Positions 2,725 to 60,000 of a stretch of 64,000 nt of DNA are shown piece after piece. Source of the DNA: Sialis fuliginosa (Eukaryota > Arthropoda > Insecta > Megaloptera > Sialidae); NCBI GenBank assembly GCA_961205875.1, contig OY540816.1:9806701-9870700 (forward strand), read 5' to 3'. Both the position numbers and the translations under genes were made by a program. How positions within the stretch are numbered: position 1 is the first letter of the stretch; every line of letters begins with the position of its first letter. Below the pieces are notes generated by a model, which saw nothing but the letters and a program-made list of their open reading frames with translations, was not told the origin of the DNA and ran no database searches.

Positions 2725-3561
2725 TTTTTCTTCAAAATAGATATTTGTCTTAAATATTTTAAATTTTTACTTTTTTCAGTTACAATGTACGAAACATCTT
2801 CCCCTATCGATTATTATTACCCTAATGACATACATATATTGAGCGTACTTTATAAATGTCACACTTTAATATTAAACCCGTGCATACAAATAAACAAAGA
2901 AGACAAATATGTAAATATGAATATATTTATAATATGTTTTTATTTAACAGTTATAATGTAATTTACTCCTTATCGTTCCCTTTTTAGAACAGCCTACTAA
3001 CCAATTGTCTTTGGTATATTGTTTTATATCTTATTCTTTCTATTCCTTACATAATTTAATTTACTGTTGATCTATTTTCTTACTCGCACAGACGCCATCG
3101 AGATATACATGAAATTACCCTTCTGTATTTGAGTAAAAAATCCCTCACTCCGTGAACGTCAAAATTTTTTGTTTGTTTTTCCACGCGATGTTGAGAAAAT
3201 CAGACAAAGACGGACGCATCATCAGACAGAAAGAGAAGAAGTTTTTTTTCGCGTTTTTTGTCGGCAAGGTCTGGAGCGTGTTATGTAGTTGTGTGCGCCG
3301 TTTTGCAAAAGCGGACAATTTTATATATATTTTGTTTTCTGGAATACATATAGATTCGATTTCCAACTGGATGGTTTTCATTATAACGAACGAAAATAAA
3401 TTTTGTATACTTTATAAATTCATTCGTTTTCAATTTATTTATTTTAGTCTTTGTAAAACCTAATAAAGCAAAAGAAGATACTTTTAATTTTAATGTTGTA
3501 CCATTTTTTATATGACACTTTATTCGACACTAATCTCATAACTATTAAATATCGTGCAGTT
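2725..3561. other. no supported feature
   Basis: AT-rich. Overlapping opposite-strand ORFs at 3145-3463 have no recognisable domain and look like chance frames. Confidence 0.55.
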
Positions 3562-48712: not shown

Positions 48713-48971
48713 AAAAATAAATTATCTCGTGGACGGTCTGAATAAATGTATCTAGTCGCTTATATTTCTACCGCTAATGTTTAACAGAGGTAATAATTGG
48801 CAACATGTTGCATGCGACGCTACTGCATGCTTCATATTTTTGAAAATTTTAAATGTCTTTTACCAGAAATGCAAACTAAAAAATTACATTAAAAGTATTT
48901 ATTTTTTAGAGGTTTGGTTATTGGTTTATTCAAAAAAATATAAACATATTTCTTTAAAATATTATATTTCA

Positions 48972-49001
48972 GACGTTTCGACCATTGTTAGTCTTCATCA
49001 G
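48972..49001 (-). ncRNA. hammerhead-like motif, left arm
   Basis: This is the mirror copy of the right-arm motif on the other strand, with the same core order (CUGAUGA, stem II, GAAAC, GUC). Confidence 0.5.
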
Positions 49002-49180
49002 TGTCTTACTCCTGTAATATTCTACATATTATGCCTTTAATAATATTATATTGTATGTTAACAATGTATCCATTTTCTAACTAATGTAGTAAGTTTGAAA
49101 GTATAAAGTATAAACTGTTTCAAACTTACAATATAATATTATTAAAGGCATAATATGTAGAATATTACAGGAGTAAGACA

Positions 49181-49210
49181 CTGATGAAGACTAACAATGG
49201 TCGAAACGTC
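49181..49210 (+). ncRNA. hammerhead-like motif, right arm
   Basis: CUGAUGA (49181-49187) is followed by a 4-bp stem II (GACU/GGUC, loop AACAAU), then GAAAC and GUC directly adjoining. Stem III would have no loop, so a single copy could not fold normally. Cleavage would need a dimer or another partner, as proposed for some retroelement hammerheads. Confidence 0.5.
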
Positions 49211-49294
49211 TGAAATATAATATTTTAAAGAAATATGTTTATATTTTTTTAAATAAACCAATGACCAAACCTCTAAAAAATAAATACTTTTAAT

Positions 49295-50254
49295 TTAAAA
49301 TATGGTCATTTACATAAACTCGAAATAAAAAATTACATATATAATAAATTCGTACATTTTAAAATTCTCATACAAAATACTTTAATTACATTGCCATATG
49401 TACTTAAGATTGACAGTACAATAATAGCATTTGCCTGAGGACAGAACCACCACAGTTATTCTTTCTGCCACAAAAATAGTGTGTAGCATACTGCACTATA
49501 AGTTATGATAGTGAAATATATCAAGTGACCACTGGCAACACGCGGGTCCAGCGGACATCTGTTACATTGTCTCAAACACCCCCTCCCACGACGGACGCTA
49601 TATATTAGAAATTGCCAAGAAGGGAATATATATAAGCAATCATATGGTCTCCGGTGATGAAATTCCCTCGACGCAGAATGGAAATTGCCATTAATATTTT
49701 TTCCTATGATTTATATTTTAACGATTTAACTAAACTAAATCTAATTTGTATTGACTGGATATTTTAAATATTCCAACACGATAATCGAAATCGATAGTTT
49801 CAAAAATTGATCCGTTAATAAAAAATTAAGGGATCTTTTTTTGAACTCTTTTAACTCTTGACAAAGAACGGAAAGGGATGATAAAATTTGTTGAAATTTT
49901 TATTAAAACATTAGAAAGTGCAAACTTTTCAATGTGCTTTGGAATACGCAAATTTAATTCATTTTTGCTTTTTTTTTAATTATCCCTTAACTTTTTTAGA
50001 GGAGTGTATAATAAAACACTACTTTTACAAACAAAATTTTCTTGATTTGATTTGAACAAATTTAGAAAAATCGATTAAAAAAATCAAAGATCGGAGATTC
50101 AAAAATCGATTTTTCAATTAAATCGAAGCGAGATCGGAAACCCTTTTAAATTATTAATTACAGTAGATTTGGACATCCCGAATCAACCATTGGACGGTAA
50201 ATGGTAAGTCCAATAAGAGATTACTGGAAAAACCGAGAAACTGTGGTTTCTAGT
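49295..50254. other. no supported feature
   Basis: AT-rich sequence downstream of the last recognised exon. No USP48 terminal exon was found. Confidence 0.45.
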
Positions 50255-50374
50255 CACTTAAACTAAAATATGTCTGGAACTATAAGGCTCCTGATGAGGA
50301 CTTCTTGTGAAGTCGAAACACGTGTCGAGTGACATTGTTTTATTGTGGTTAAGGTGTATATTTTAGTTTAAGTG
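50255..50374. mobile_element. hairpin element with intact hammerhead-like core
   Basis: Perfect 17-base arms (CACTTAAACTAAAATAT, 50255-50271, and inverse 50358-50374) enclose the ribozyme-like loop. It is homologous to 33510-33626, including the upstream GAGAAACTGTGGTTTCTAGT and downstream TGTGGTTAAGGTGTATA segments. Confidence 0.8.
50291..50326 (+). ncRNA. hammerhead-ribozyme-like motif with complete core
   Basis: CUGAUGA (50291-50297) is followed by stem II (GACUUC-UUGU-GAAGUC), GAAA (50315-50318), a 2-bp stem III (AC/GU) around a 4-base ACGU loop, and GUC at 50324-50326. Short stem I pairing is available (CUC before the core with GAG after GUC, plus a G-U). All conserved core positions of the hammerhead are present. 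Minimal hammerheads with short stem III are known from Penelope-like elements and retrozymes. Activity is inferred only. Confidence 0.65.
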
Positions 50375-51784
50375 TCAATAAGAGATATTTTTCTGCAAAG
50401 TCGCGGGGCCCCAAGAGACGTAAGGCCCGTAGCATTTGCTACTCCTGCTACGTGGTTAATCTGGCACTGCCCCTCCTCCTTAACATGTGACGTAATTTAT
50501 GCATTACCCCTATTTTGAAATAGAGGGATTGTTTAATTTTTTTAAACACCCAGCAAGTGTTAATTTTCCAACGAAACTAAATACGTGGTGAATCCTAGTT
50601 GACTGCTCGATCGACCCATCATTCATATTCTGTTATAAATTTTATATCGCACATGGCGCGCTCTCGGAAAATGAATAAGAAAAGTCAGGGGGTGAAAAAC
50701 CAGCTGTGGGAAACTCGGCCGCGTGACTGGACCACTAAACACCTTGTGGTCAAGAGGGCTGAGCGTGAAAAATTTATTGCTTTTAAAATAACTTGTCTAC
50801 ATTGTAATCGAAACGGCTGCGAGGAAACAGTTGGTGGTTTTAATACTTATTGTTTTATTTATACGGAAATCGGGTGTGTTATTTGTTAGGTAGTGTACGA
50901 GAATCGGAAAATTGGATTTTTATTTTTCTACAATTTTTTTTTAAACTTGTGTATTAAAGTAGTTCAATATTTTTTGCGAGAAATACATTTTAGAAAAATT
51001 CTAAGTTGCTTGAAAATTGGAACACACATTTATTTAGTCGTTAAAAATAATACGAAATCAAGATCACCGCGGAAGCCTCAAGACTTTGTTGTATTATTAC
51101 TTGTTTATCAGGTGACAAACTTAAAAATTAGTTATTTCGAAAATAACTTTTTACCAGGTTTGCGACAAAAATGGTAATTATTAAAAAATTAAGCTCCGAC
51201 CTAGAAAAAGATAACCAATGATGTTTGTCTTAATATTTTGGAATCTGTTGCAAGTGATTCTGATATTTACGCGGTGGCAAACGACTACTATTACTATTTT
51301 TTTATAGAAAATATATGTATAAACTATTTCCAAACCTTCGTATTTAAAAATAACTTTTTTTTTATAGAATTATAAATTGATATTGGGTGTTTTTTGAAAA
51401 AAAAAAATGTACACTTTTTATGCATAAAGAATTATTTTAATAATAATTTACATATACATTATTTATATACATTATTATAATTTATATTATAATAATTTAA
51501 TATTAATAATAATAATATTTAATAATAATGTGCATAAATAATTATTTGTGCTAAATAAATTTAAAGAACATTAATTTTTATACGGACTTTTGTCATCTTT
51601 ATTTATGAACCATAAATAAAAAGTAATGTTTACTACCATAAAATATTTTTATTATTTGTCTTATAAATAATAAAATTTGAGATATTTTAGAAAAAATACC
51701 AGGTAAAAAATATATAATTAGCAGATAAGATAGTACCCTCGACTTTTTACATACAATTTATATCGACTAAATAAAGGCGTATAC
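50375..51784. other. no supported feature
   Basis: Plus-strand ORFs at 50599-50889 and 50893-51177 were inspected. The first has a Cys/His-containing stretch (CLHCNRNGCEE) but no recognisable domain. 51400-51560 is nearly pure A/T. Confidence 0.45.
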
Positions 51785-58422: not shown

Positions 58423-59485
58423 TATCGCATTTTAGAATATCTCCTATTCCCTTTTAAACATATGTATGTATGTCGGCATTTTTTTTAAATCGTCAGTGTA
58501 TAATAGGATATAAATGGAGACCATTTTCTAAAACCAAAATATAATATAAAAAACTAAATACAAAAATTTTTCAATAATAAAAAAATTGTTTTTGCATTTA
58601 TATTTGCCTTATTCATGATTTGGTGCTCATCCTACTAATGAAGGCAACGTTGGGTTGCCTACACTGCTTGGCAGGATGTGAACGGAAAAATATTGAAAAA
58701 TTAAATTTAAATAATGATTAATTAATTTTTGACAACGCAGCCTTACAAAAAATAGTACTGCAAACATCGTTATATTATTTTTTCGATATTTATTTATTAT
58801 AGTCATAAGTCATGGCCTCGCAAGCCTAGGAATAAAAATAGTCCGTTTTCACTATAATATTAAAAACATATTTTTATTTAAGTCATCCAATAAATTCTGA
58901 TATAATCAGATTTTGTTCAGTTTGATTTCCGAATCTTTCAAAGTATACGTATATAGGGTGTAGCATAATTTATACAGATCTTACATGTGTAATGTTCTAG
59001 AACTTATCGTCCATACTATAAATACGTACACATGTTCCTGGTAACCCTTTACAAGCGTGGGAAAGCCACCGACTGCACTACGTCTGGTGTTTGTCACGTG
59101 ATATATGTGCTCATGCCGAAGATACTGTAATCATTTACTTACACACATATGTAAGTGTATGTATATATGTATATGTATAGTACATTTGTACATGCCTAGT
59201 TTAAGAAATTAATTACTTTTTTTAAGTGTATTTGTGAATATGAATTATTTTTAAATGCCGGATAAGGTTGTTGGGTTCATTTAGGCTTCCTTGATTAATT
59301 AGATAAAAATATTGTTACGAAAAGTATTTTCTCTAATTGTAAGACAGTAATAGACTATTTCTGTAGAGGCAGTCAGTTCTCTATTTATTTAATTATAACT
59401 AATTCAAATGTTTTTCGTGTATATAATTCCGTTGAAATCTCGAGTTCGAAATATAAAAAGTAAAAAGAAACTGAAAAAAAAAATT
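58423..59485. other. no supported feature
   Basis: AT-rich. Nothing recognised. Confidence 0.5.
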
Positions 59486-60000
59486 CTTGGGATGCACATG
59501 GTATAATATTTATTGACTACCTTCTACATGGTAGAACAATCAACAAAGAATATTACTGTGCATTACTGGATCGATTGGATGACGAAGTCAAGTCAAAATG
59601 GCCGCAAATGTCGAAGAAAGAAATGCTGTTTCTCCAAGACAATGCACCATTTCACAAGGCTCACGTTGCGACCAATAAATTGAAGAAATTGTGCTATGAA
59701 TTTGTTCCGCACCCACCGTATTCTCCTGACCTGCCCCCCCCCCCCCCCCCCCAGCGACTACTACCTTTTTCCAAAATTGAAAATGTGGTTGTCTGGCAAA
59801 ATATTTTACTATAATGAAGAAGTTGAGTTGGACACAAACTCCTTTTTGAGAGACTTGACGCGAACCACTATAAGACCGGTATCGAAATGTTAGAGGACGT
59901 TGGAACAATTGCATTACTCTAGGTCGAGACTCTAGATGGAGATTATGTCGAAGAATAAAATAGTTTTTTCATTGTTAAGCCGTAGACTTTTCAGCCATGT
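59486..60000 (+). mobile_element. mariner element, 3' fragment
   Basis: It is truncated at the 5' side inside the transposase, with the right terminus TTTTCAGCCATGTA still recognisable against the 39416 element (CTTTTCAGCCCATG). Confidence 0.88.
59488..59956 (+). pseudogene. mariner transposase, C-terminal half, broken
   Basis: The frame from 59488 reads WDAHGIIFIDYL, then FLQDNAPFHKAHV and HPPYSPDLP. These carry the three catalytic-aspartate contexts of a mariner DD34D transposase (WDA, QDNA, SPDL). A C homopolymer at about 59742-59752 replaces the Ala-Pro stretch and shifts frame. The chain continues in another frame as DYYLFPKLKMWLSGK and then degenerates before the usual GDYVEE-like end. 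The N-terminal half is absent. The element is non-functional. Confidence 0.88.

Follow-up and report, generated by a model that had tools for sequence, protein, structure and literature searches.

The hairpin locus analysed here, within a 64,000-nucleotide stretch of the Sialis fuliginosa genome (hereafter the window), is very probably a dead, inverted pseudo-LTR (pLTR) insertion of a Penelope-like retroelement (PLE), produced by two-primer joining on a hammerhead-bearing RNA. The parts of this reading that can be taken directly from the letters are the linkage to a GIY-YIG endonuclease, the target-site duplications, the two types of end, the variable junctions, the one tail of each scored copy, and the variants that the two arms have in common. 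PLE pLTR scars are a known kind of sequence, and tails, inversion, and hammerheads have all been published; our literature search, which had most subscription papers and the two main PLE hammerhead papers outside its reach, found no count of tails per insertion and no test of arm templates, and we claim no priority. Such scars bear on the mechanism by which Penelope elements insert. Because it carries 1,891 hammerhead cores in short scars with clear boundaries, the genome offers a natural record of many insertion reactions, and the start sites, the spacing of the cuts, the sharing of templates, and the junctions are all readable from scar sequences and testable.

The window copy and a second insertion nearby

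The original prediction placed a complete hammerhead-like core at this locus, and the motif is indeed present in the proposed order, running from CTGATGA through a 6-bp stem II, GAAA, and a minimal stem III to the C (50291-50326; Table 1). The invariant core is complete and has three helices, with an extra G added to stem II and a stem III that is both minimal and palindromic, and the motif matches descriptions of the minimal-helix-III hammerheads known from PLEs, as had been proposed. The 17-bp outer stem, which falls within a 24-nt, 88% inverted pair (I11 in the inverted-repeat listing of the window), had been thought to bring the two sides of the ribozyme together; we read it instead as a second, inverted, truncated cDNA, whose length and junction vary between copies. 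The whole insertion measures 154 nt (50222-50375) between 11-bp target duplications, has no tail at its right end, and in the 5' strand of stem I reads CTATAAGG where most relatives have CTGTTAGG. The proposed mobile-element origin holds in that the locus is the remnant of a mobile element, but a retrozyme or tandem-dimer unit is not supported, direct tandems being nearly absent at 126-150 nt.

The ordered motif CTGATGA-N{4,30}-GAAA-N{0,20}-GTC occurs three times in the window, against a shuffle mean of 0.09, with 1 of 100 shuffles also reaching three; a chance origin of three such motifs per 64 kb is unlikely. The two that were absent from the original prediction lie, opposed, in a second inverted insertion from a different family (Table 1). 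This second family shows one long and one short end in all 10 copies with both outer ends readable (L031, L032, L033, L040, L045, L046, L049, L052, L055, and L056), a count made by eye with neighboring arms taken as one insertion and with duplicates, one-ended copies, and the tangled L053 excluded.

A domain scan of six of the seven listed window frames returned one mariner-like match, four frames with none, and one weak YolD match. The first is a mariner-like transposase fragment at 59464-59811 on the plus strand (Transposase_1, E 1.7e-10), and the YolD match (E 0.0071, under its cut-off) is attributed to chance.

Table 1. Coordinates of the two hammerhead insertions in the window and of their parts
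Feature	Position	Strand	Basis
Hammerhead motif	50288-50329	+	Hammerhead_1 alignment below gathering score; genome-wide core copies
CTGATGA	50291-50297	+	Direct read
One additional G between CTGATGA and stem II	50298	+	Direct read
Stem II, GACTTC / GAAGTC	50299-50304 / 50309-50314	+	Direct read
GAAA	50315-50318	+	Direct read
Stem III, palindromic, ACACGTGT	50318-50325	+	Direct read
C, proposed cut after it	50326	+	Direct read
17-bp arms, CACTTAAACTAAAATAT / ATATTTTAGTTTAAGTG, mutually complementary	50255-50271 / 50358-50374		Direct read
Left target-site duplication, CAATAAGAGAT	50211-50221	.	Identical to 50376-50386
Right target-site duplication, CAATAAGAGAT	50376-50386	.	Identical to left one
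PLE tail, 33 nt, inverted, left end, TACTGGAAAAAC...	50222-50254	-	Matches 3' end of straight copy L065
Truncated inverted cDNA arm, left half of the outer stem	50255-50271	-	Complement of 50358-50374; length varies among copies
Forward arm: pLTR from near proposed transcription start (GTCTGG) through hammerhead to tail-less end (TTTAAG)	50272-50375	+	Matches yardstick 198-301
Second inverted hammerhead insertion, other family	48877-49338	.	Inverted arms, ordered motifs, target-site duplication
Second insertion, body, ~1 kb upstream of window copy	48890-49325		
Second insertion, target-site duplication, 13 bp, TAAAAAATTACAT	48877-48889 and 49326-49338		
Second insertion, inverted arms	48884-49059 / 49123-49298		98% complementary
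Second insertion, tail, ~27 nt, right side	about 49299-49325		
Second insertion, minimal hammerheads, opposed (CTGATGAAGACTAACAATGGTCGAAACGTC)	48972-49001 and 49181-49210	- and +	

Genome-wide copies, their source element, and their ends

Allowing up to three mismatches to the 36-nt core, we found 941 + 950 copies in the genome and none with a reversed-pattern control, which is the strongest support for the motif; the resulting 1,891 counts cores rather than insertions, some of which contain two (e.g. L070, L086, L093, and L094).

Longer copies join the hammerhead to a coding frame. At L099, the frame GIYKINCVNCNKRYIGQT lies upstream of the hammerhead and matches the Pfam GIY-YIG domain (PF01541) with E 2.8e-4 and 21.6 bits, just under the cut-off of 22.6; past a frame change, the upstream protein reads SGIYKINCVNCNKRYIGQTRRSINIRFKEH, in which the GIY-YIG motif is visible. 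The L099 frame is broken, and its C-terminus, KRDKPF-stop, sits in the other frame after the frame change, directly 5' of the hammerhead, while at L062 the same C-terminus, from SLEILRD on, runs into the hammerhead. The 177-nt ORF-end stretch upstream of the core has at least 42 genome matches (40 of 316 candidates scored), and the endonuclease piece has at least 150 scored matches (528 candidates). Among them are an open frame of 854 aa that is 85% identical and lies near G000 C9 1397486, and frames of 815 and 711 aa in a 59%-identical relative. A genome search with the Pfam model itself gave two GIY-YIG matches over the cut-off. Among the at least 150 endonuclease matches, neighbors within 5 kb were arranged minus-then-plus in 10 cases, minus-minus in one, and plus-then-minus in none, and head-to-head pairs are thus also found at the scale of the endonuclease ORF. 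The element appears to be Penelope-like (EN+), known here from its endonuclease frame and from the side on which the ORF adjoins the pLTR (L099 and L062). Separately, a tandem array of a larger unit (G000 C10:3223682-3253345) shows five PLE endonuclease ends, all on the same strand and recurring every ~7,367 bp, and L099, which comes from this array, also has frames that by eye resemble a retroviral-type integrase.

The same locus carries the candidate promoter. Here TATAAATA (3463-3470) directly adjoins the TAG stop codon (3460-3462), and TATCAGTC has its A at 3494, 31 nt past the first T of TATA; we take both to fit the core-promoter consensus and spacing. In a core-only sample, 22 of 37 core-bearing arms start no more than about 5 nt from the proposed +1, as would be expected if the template RNA often begins there, and the other 15 start elsewhere. 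One longer inverted copy (L089/L093, a single locus near G000 C1 13784900) has arms that meet in an AT-rich center upstream of the proposed RNA start, suggesting that some templates begin further upstream.

Insertion ends were compared in two samples, loci L001-L030, chosen for their resemblance to the window copy and therefore biased in their ends, and loci L060-L089, which were picked by the exact core only, as the first listed on contig C1, and represent 28 distinct loci. Two types of end recur: a short one, TTTAAG, and a long one, TTTAAGTGAC-tail-CCAGTA, with a tail of ~33 nt. By script, 20 of the 28 loci in the second sample have one long and one short end, five a short end only, and three a long end only. 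On reading by eye, both ends are present in L067, L077, and L080, with the tail or arm short or damaged; L060, L079, and L088 are straight copies with the short end and L065 is a straight copy with the long end; and L078 has an incomplete left arm, its "long" call reflecting an over-extended alignment. None of these 28 loci was seen to have two long or two short ends. In the first sample, neither end of L027 carries a full tail, and a clear target duplication is missing there too; L030 consists of two nested insertions.

A larger set of 42 inverted hammerhead copies, gathered genome-wide by exact pattern in one length range, carries the tail on the truncated-arm side in 18 cases, on the hammerhead-arm side in 12, and on both sides in none, with neither tail giving an exact match in the remaining 12. 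Independent, equal use of either start site predicts two tails in one-third of tailed copies, and we observed none in the 30 scorable copies, with the proviso that exact patterns miss mutated tails, and mutation of one of two tails would leave a copy scored as one-tailed. Three of the 12 tail-unmatched copies (L020, L025, and L075) have a mutated tail on reading. The idea that the tail marks the shorter arm was rejected, as there is no such bias: by eye, the tail arm is shorter in about nine copies, the other arm in eight, and both reach past the hammerhead in six.

Across 57 loci, the longest word common to both ends is 12 bp in 28, 11-13 bp in 42, and at least 10 bp in 46, vs a word of at least 10 bp in 17 of 3192 mismatched pairs; no common word of that length was found at the ends of 11 of the 57. 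These lengths suggest a staggered cut of about 12 bp. We also observed ACATCTGCCAAGTAAATGCACAGTGCTTCCTCGTG, whole or partial and on either strand, near L008, L017, L060, and L070; it belongs to another repeat, perhaps a preferred target.

In all 28 copies that could be typed, the two arms carry the identical subfamily variant, vs a mean of 10.6 and a maximum of 19 under shuffling; typing used a stretch with three source variants, 37 copies had both anchors, nine were untypable, and 16 of the 28 came from the similarity-picked set. Counting only positions past the core, and with alignment edges adding noise, the two arms of a copy disagree at 38 of 847 positions (4.5%), vs 1946 of 24092 (8.1%) for arms of different copies. 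Because the arms differ at one or more positions in 18 of 29 copies, conversion has not equalized them, and the shared variants and these differences together indicate that a single RNA, or RNAs with a common source, served as template for both arms, which have drifted since. Shared variants would likewise be expected if one source locus had contributed two RNAs to a single particle.

Arm length and inverted junction vary from copy to copy. Among the 32 readable junctions (of 54 matches, 22 being listed without letters), 14 have 1-3 shared nt. The largest peak, five of 32, falls at +12, the base of stem II; four of these five share 2 nt with the other side, and shared letters could explain the peak.

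Folding and possible cleavage of the hammerhead

We lean slightly toward viewing the PLE hammerhead as an active, self-cleaving ribozyme, one that works as a dimer or assisted by a protein and trims PLE RNA; this is compatible with the insertion reading given above. A complete core has been kept in both window families, which have little other sequence in common, and the palindromic stem III could pair between two RNAs and would fit dimer action. In reviews, PLE hammerheads are described as minimal motifs without helix III or tertiary contacts that may act, and possibly cleave, as dimers (PMC6155905; PMC7761336), and cleavage by the Anolis PLE hammerhead is reported to require protein (PMC11167929).

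Several results weigh against activity. An Rfam check of the window gave no matches at gathering score, an outcome that the original prediction had itself listed as adverse; under lax settings, Hammerhead_1 (RF00163) aligns over 50288-50329 with 17.7 bits, below the gathering score of 34, and E 0.094. The missing match can be explained by the minimal form in which PLE hammerheads are reported. A genome-wide Rfam hammerhead search returned no match, as did its control, and is uninformative, and microRNA-like Rfam matches to mir-578, MIR7993, and mir-507 were set aside as chance (14.8-17 bits vs gathering scores of 79-100). The fold of 50235-50390 beats 200 of 200 shuffles (z -5.8), and its minimum-energy form is not a hammerhead. 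In the forward arm, the hammerhead-constrained fold reaches -12.3 kcal/mol vs -22.3 kcal/mol for the free fold, which leaves the competing fold better by 10, and the straight copy L065 folds alike (-13.9 vs -23.6).

Nor are core bases better kept than their flanks among copies, the second finding that had been named in advance as counting against a functional ribozyme. Mismatches to L065 number 11 of 348 in the core vs 49 of 2421 elsewhere (P 0.17) in 29 copies picked by whole-element similarity, positions with a minority letter in L065 being excluded, and there is no sign of selection on the core in these 29 compared copies. Dead-on-arrival copies would be expected to evolve without selection, which can explain this result. 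cDNA ends likewise show no pile-up at the hammerhead cut, with 3 of 32 readable junctions exactly at the cleavage site. Judging from their sequence, the RNA templates of core-spanning copies were uncut at that site, and their intact passage across it suggests that hammerhead cleavage is dispensable for making these copies.

A two-primer model, its rivals, and known systems

In the model that we favor, a promoter just past the PLE stop (TATAAATA at -31, TATCAGTC at the start) would drive transcription of an RNA in which the minimal hammerhead, at about +21 to +56, precedes two RT start sites ~35 nt apart. The PLE enzyme would make a staggered target cut of about 12 bp, after which one target strand would prime at the upstream site, giving no tail, and the other at the downstream site, giving the tail, presumably on the same RNA. 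The two cDNAs would then be joined head to head at variable points, yielding a hairpin-like insert with one tail, although the order of these events is our own inference. Joining of two cDNAs would account for the variable junctions, and one tail per copy would follow if the first cDNA on a single RNA covers the upstream site and only the tail stays open. In a stricter version, put forward tentatively as the less probable case, a single RNA would have to serve twice in every PLE integration, the first strand priming upstream and leaving just the ~35-nt tail single-stranded and the second being limited to the downstream site. If true, it would explain exactly one tail in every scored inverted copy together with the arm variants held in common, and would set PLEs apart from LINEs as two-primer, one-template retroelements.

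Inverted insertions might instead arise from self-priming of one cDNA rather than from two target primers, an explanation favored for bdelloid Penelope, with an antisense template (PMC3846280). Head-to-head palindromes are common here and shared arm variants fit this explanation too, but self-priming predicts arms of nearly equal reach, whereas those observed are often very unequal (window copy: inverted 288-335, forward 198-301), and one arm stops at a fixed tail-less site rather than copying the tail. The unequal arms make self-priming unlikely as the source of these copies.

The retrozyme of the original prediction, a small non-autonomous element copied via hammerhead-cut RNA circles from tandem dimers and known from many animals, would account for a type I-like hammerhead, a ~140-nt unit, low GC, and high copy number, and in one array the core recurs unchanged in four 176-bp units. 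This array (L090 560-1266; G000 C1:39236159-39236865) consists of four tandem units inside a PLE insertion, includes sequence foreign to the element in its unit, and looks like a later local duplication; it supplies three of the four exact pattern matches that a search for direct tandems 126-150 nt apart returned, vs 1,891 cores. As copies are bounded by the two RT start sites and not by the cleavage site, where junctions do not accumulate, a retrozyme is highly improbable. We give almost no credence to a foldback or MITE-type DNA transposon with a chance hammerhead-like motif, which would likewise produce inverted ends and target duplications but is contradicted by the variable junctions; moreover, a ~33-nt tail sets one end apart from the other, arms are not of constant length between copies, straight copies exist (L060, L065, L079, and L088), and longer copies are contiguous with the GIY-YIG frame.

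The two-primer reading can also be set beside published systems. Metazoan retrozymes likewise are small and low in GC and carry a type I hammerhead, but they are tandem repeats processed to circles, whereas direct tandems at 126-150 nt are nearly absent here (PMC7229834). PLEs have pLTRs on both sides of the ORF. Among the Penelope/Poseidon PLEs, PAc of Anolis carolinensis likewise combines a GIY-YIG endonuclease with a pLTR hammerhead, a 30-40 bp tail defined by two adjacent internal RT start sites, cutting and extension of both target strands, and uncut RNA as the dominant template (PMC11167929). In vitro assays of PAc showed cutting and extension of both strands from two adjacent start sites that define the tail, with no strand difference in start site and no need for the hammerhead; later insertion steps are, according to that study, yet to be validated (PMC11167929). 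The PAc hammerhead overlaps the ORF start, whereas in the copies read here it lies just past the stop codon, and tails per inverted insertion are here counted genome-wide (PMC11167929). Penelope families of Adineta vaga likewise show head-to-head inverted pLTRs, an optional 31-bp tail at one inverted pLTR end, and a TATA/Inr-like motif in the pLTR, with target duplications of 8-10 bp in the described cases (PMC3846280). Those families are of low copy number, compared with 1,891 cores here, and self-priming on an antisense template has been proposed for them (PMC3846280); the unequal arms of the Sialis copies argue instead for two target primers.
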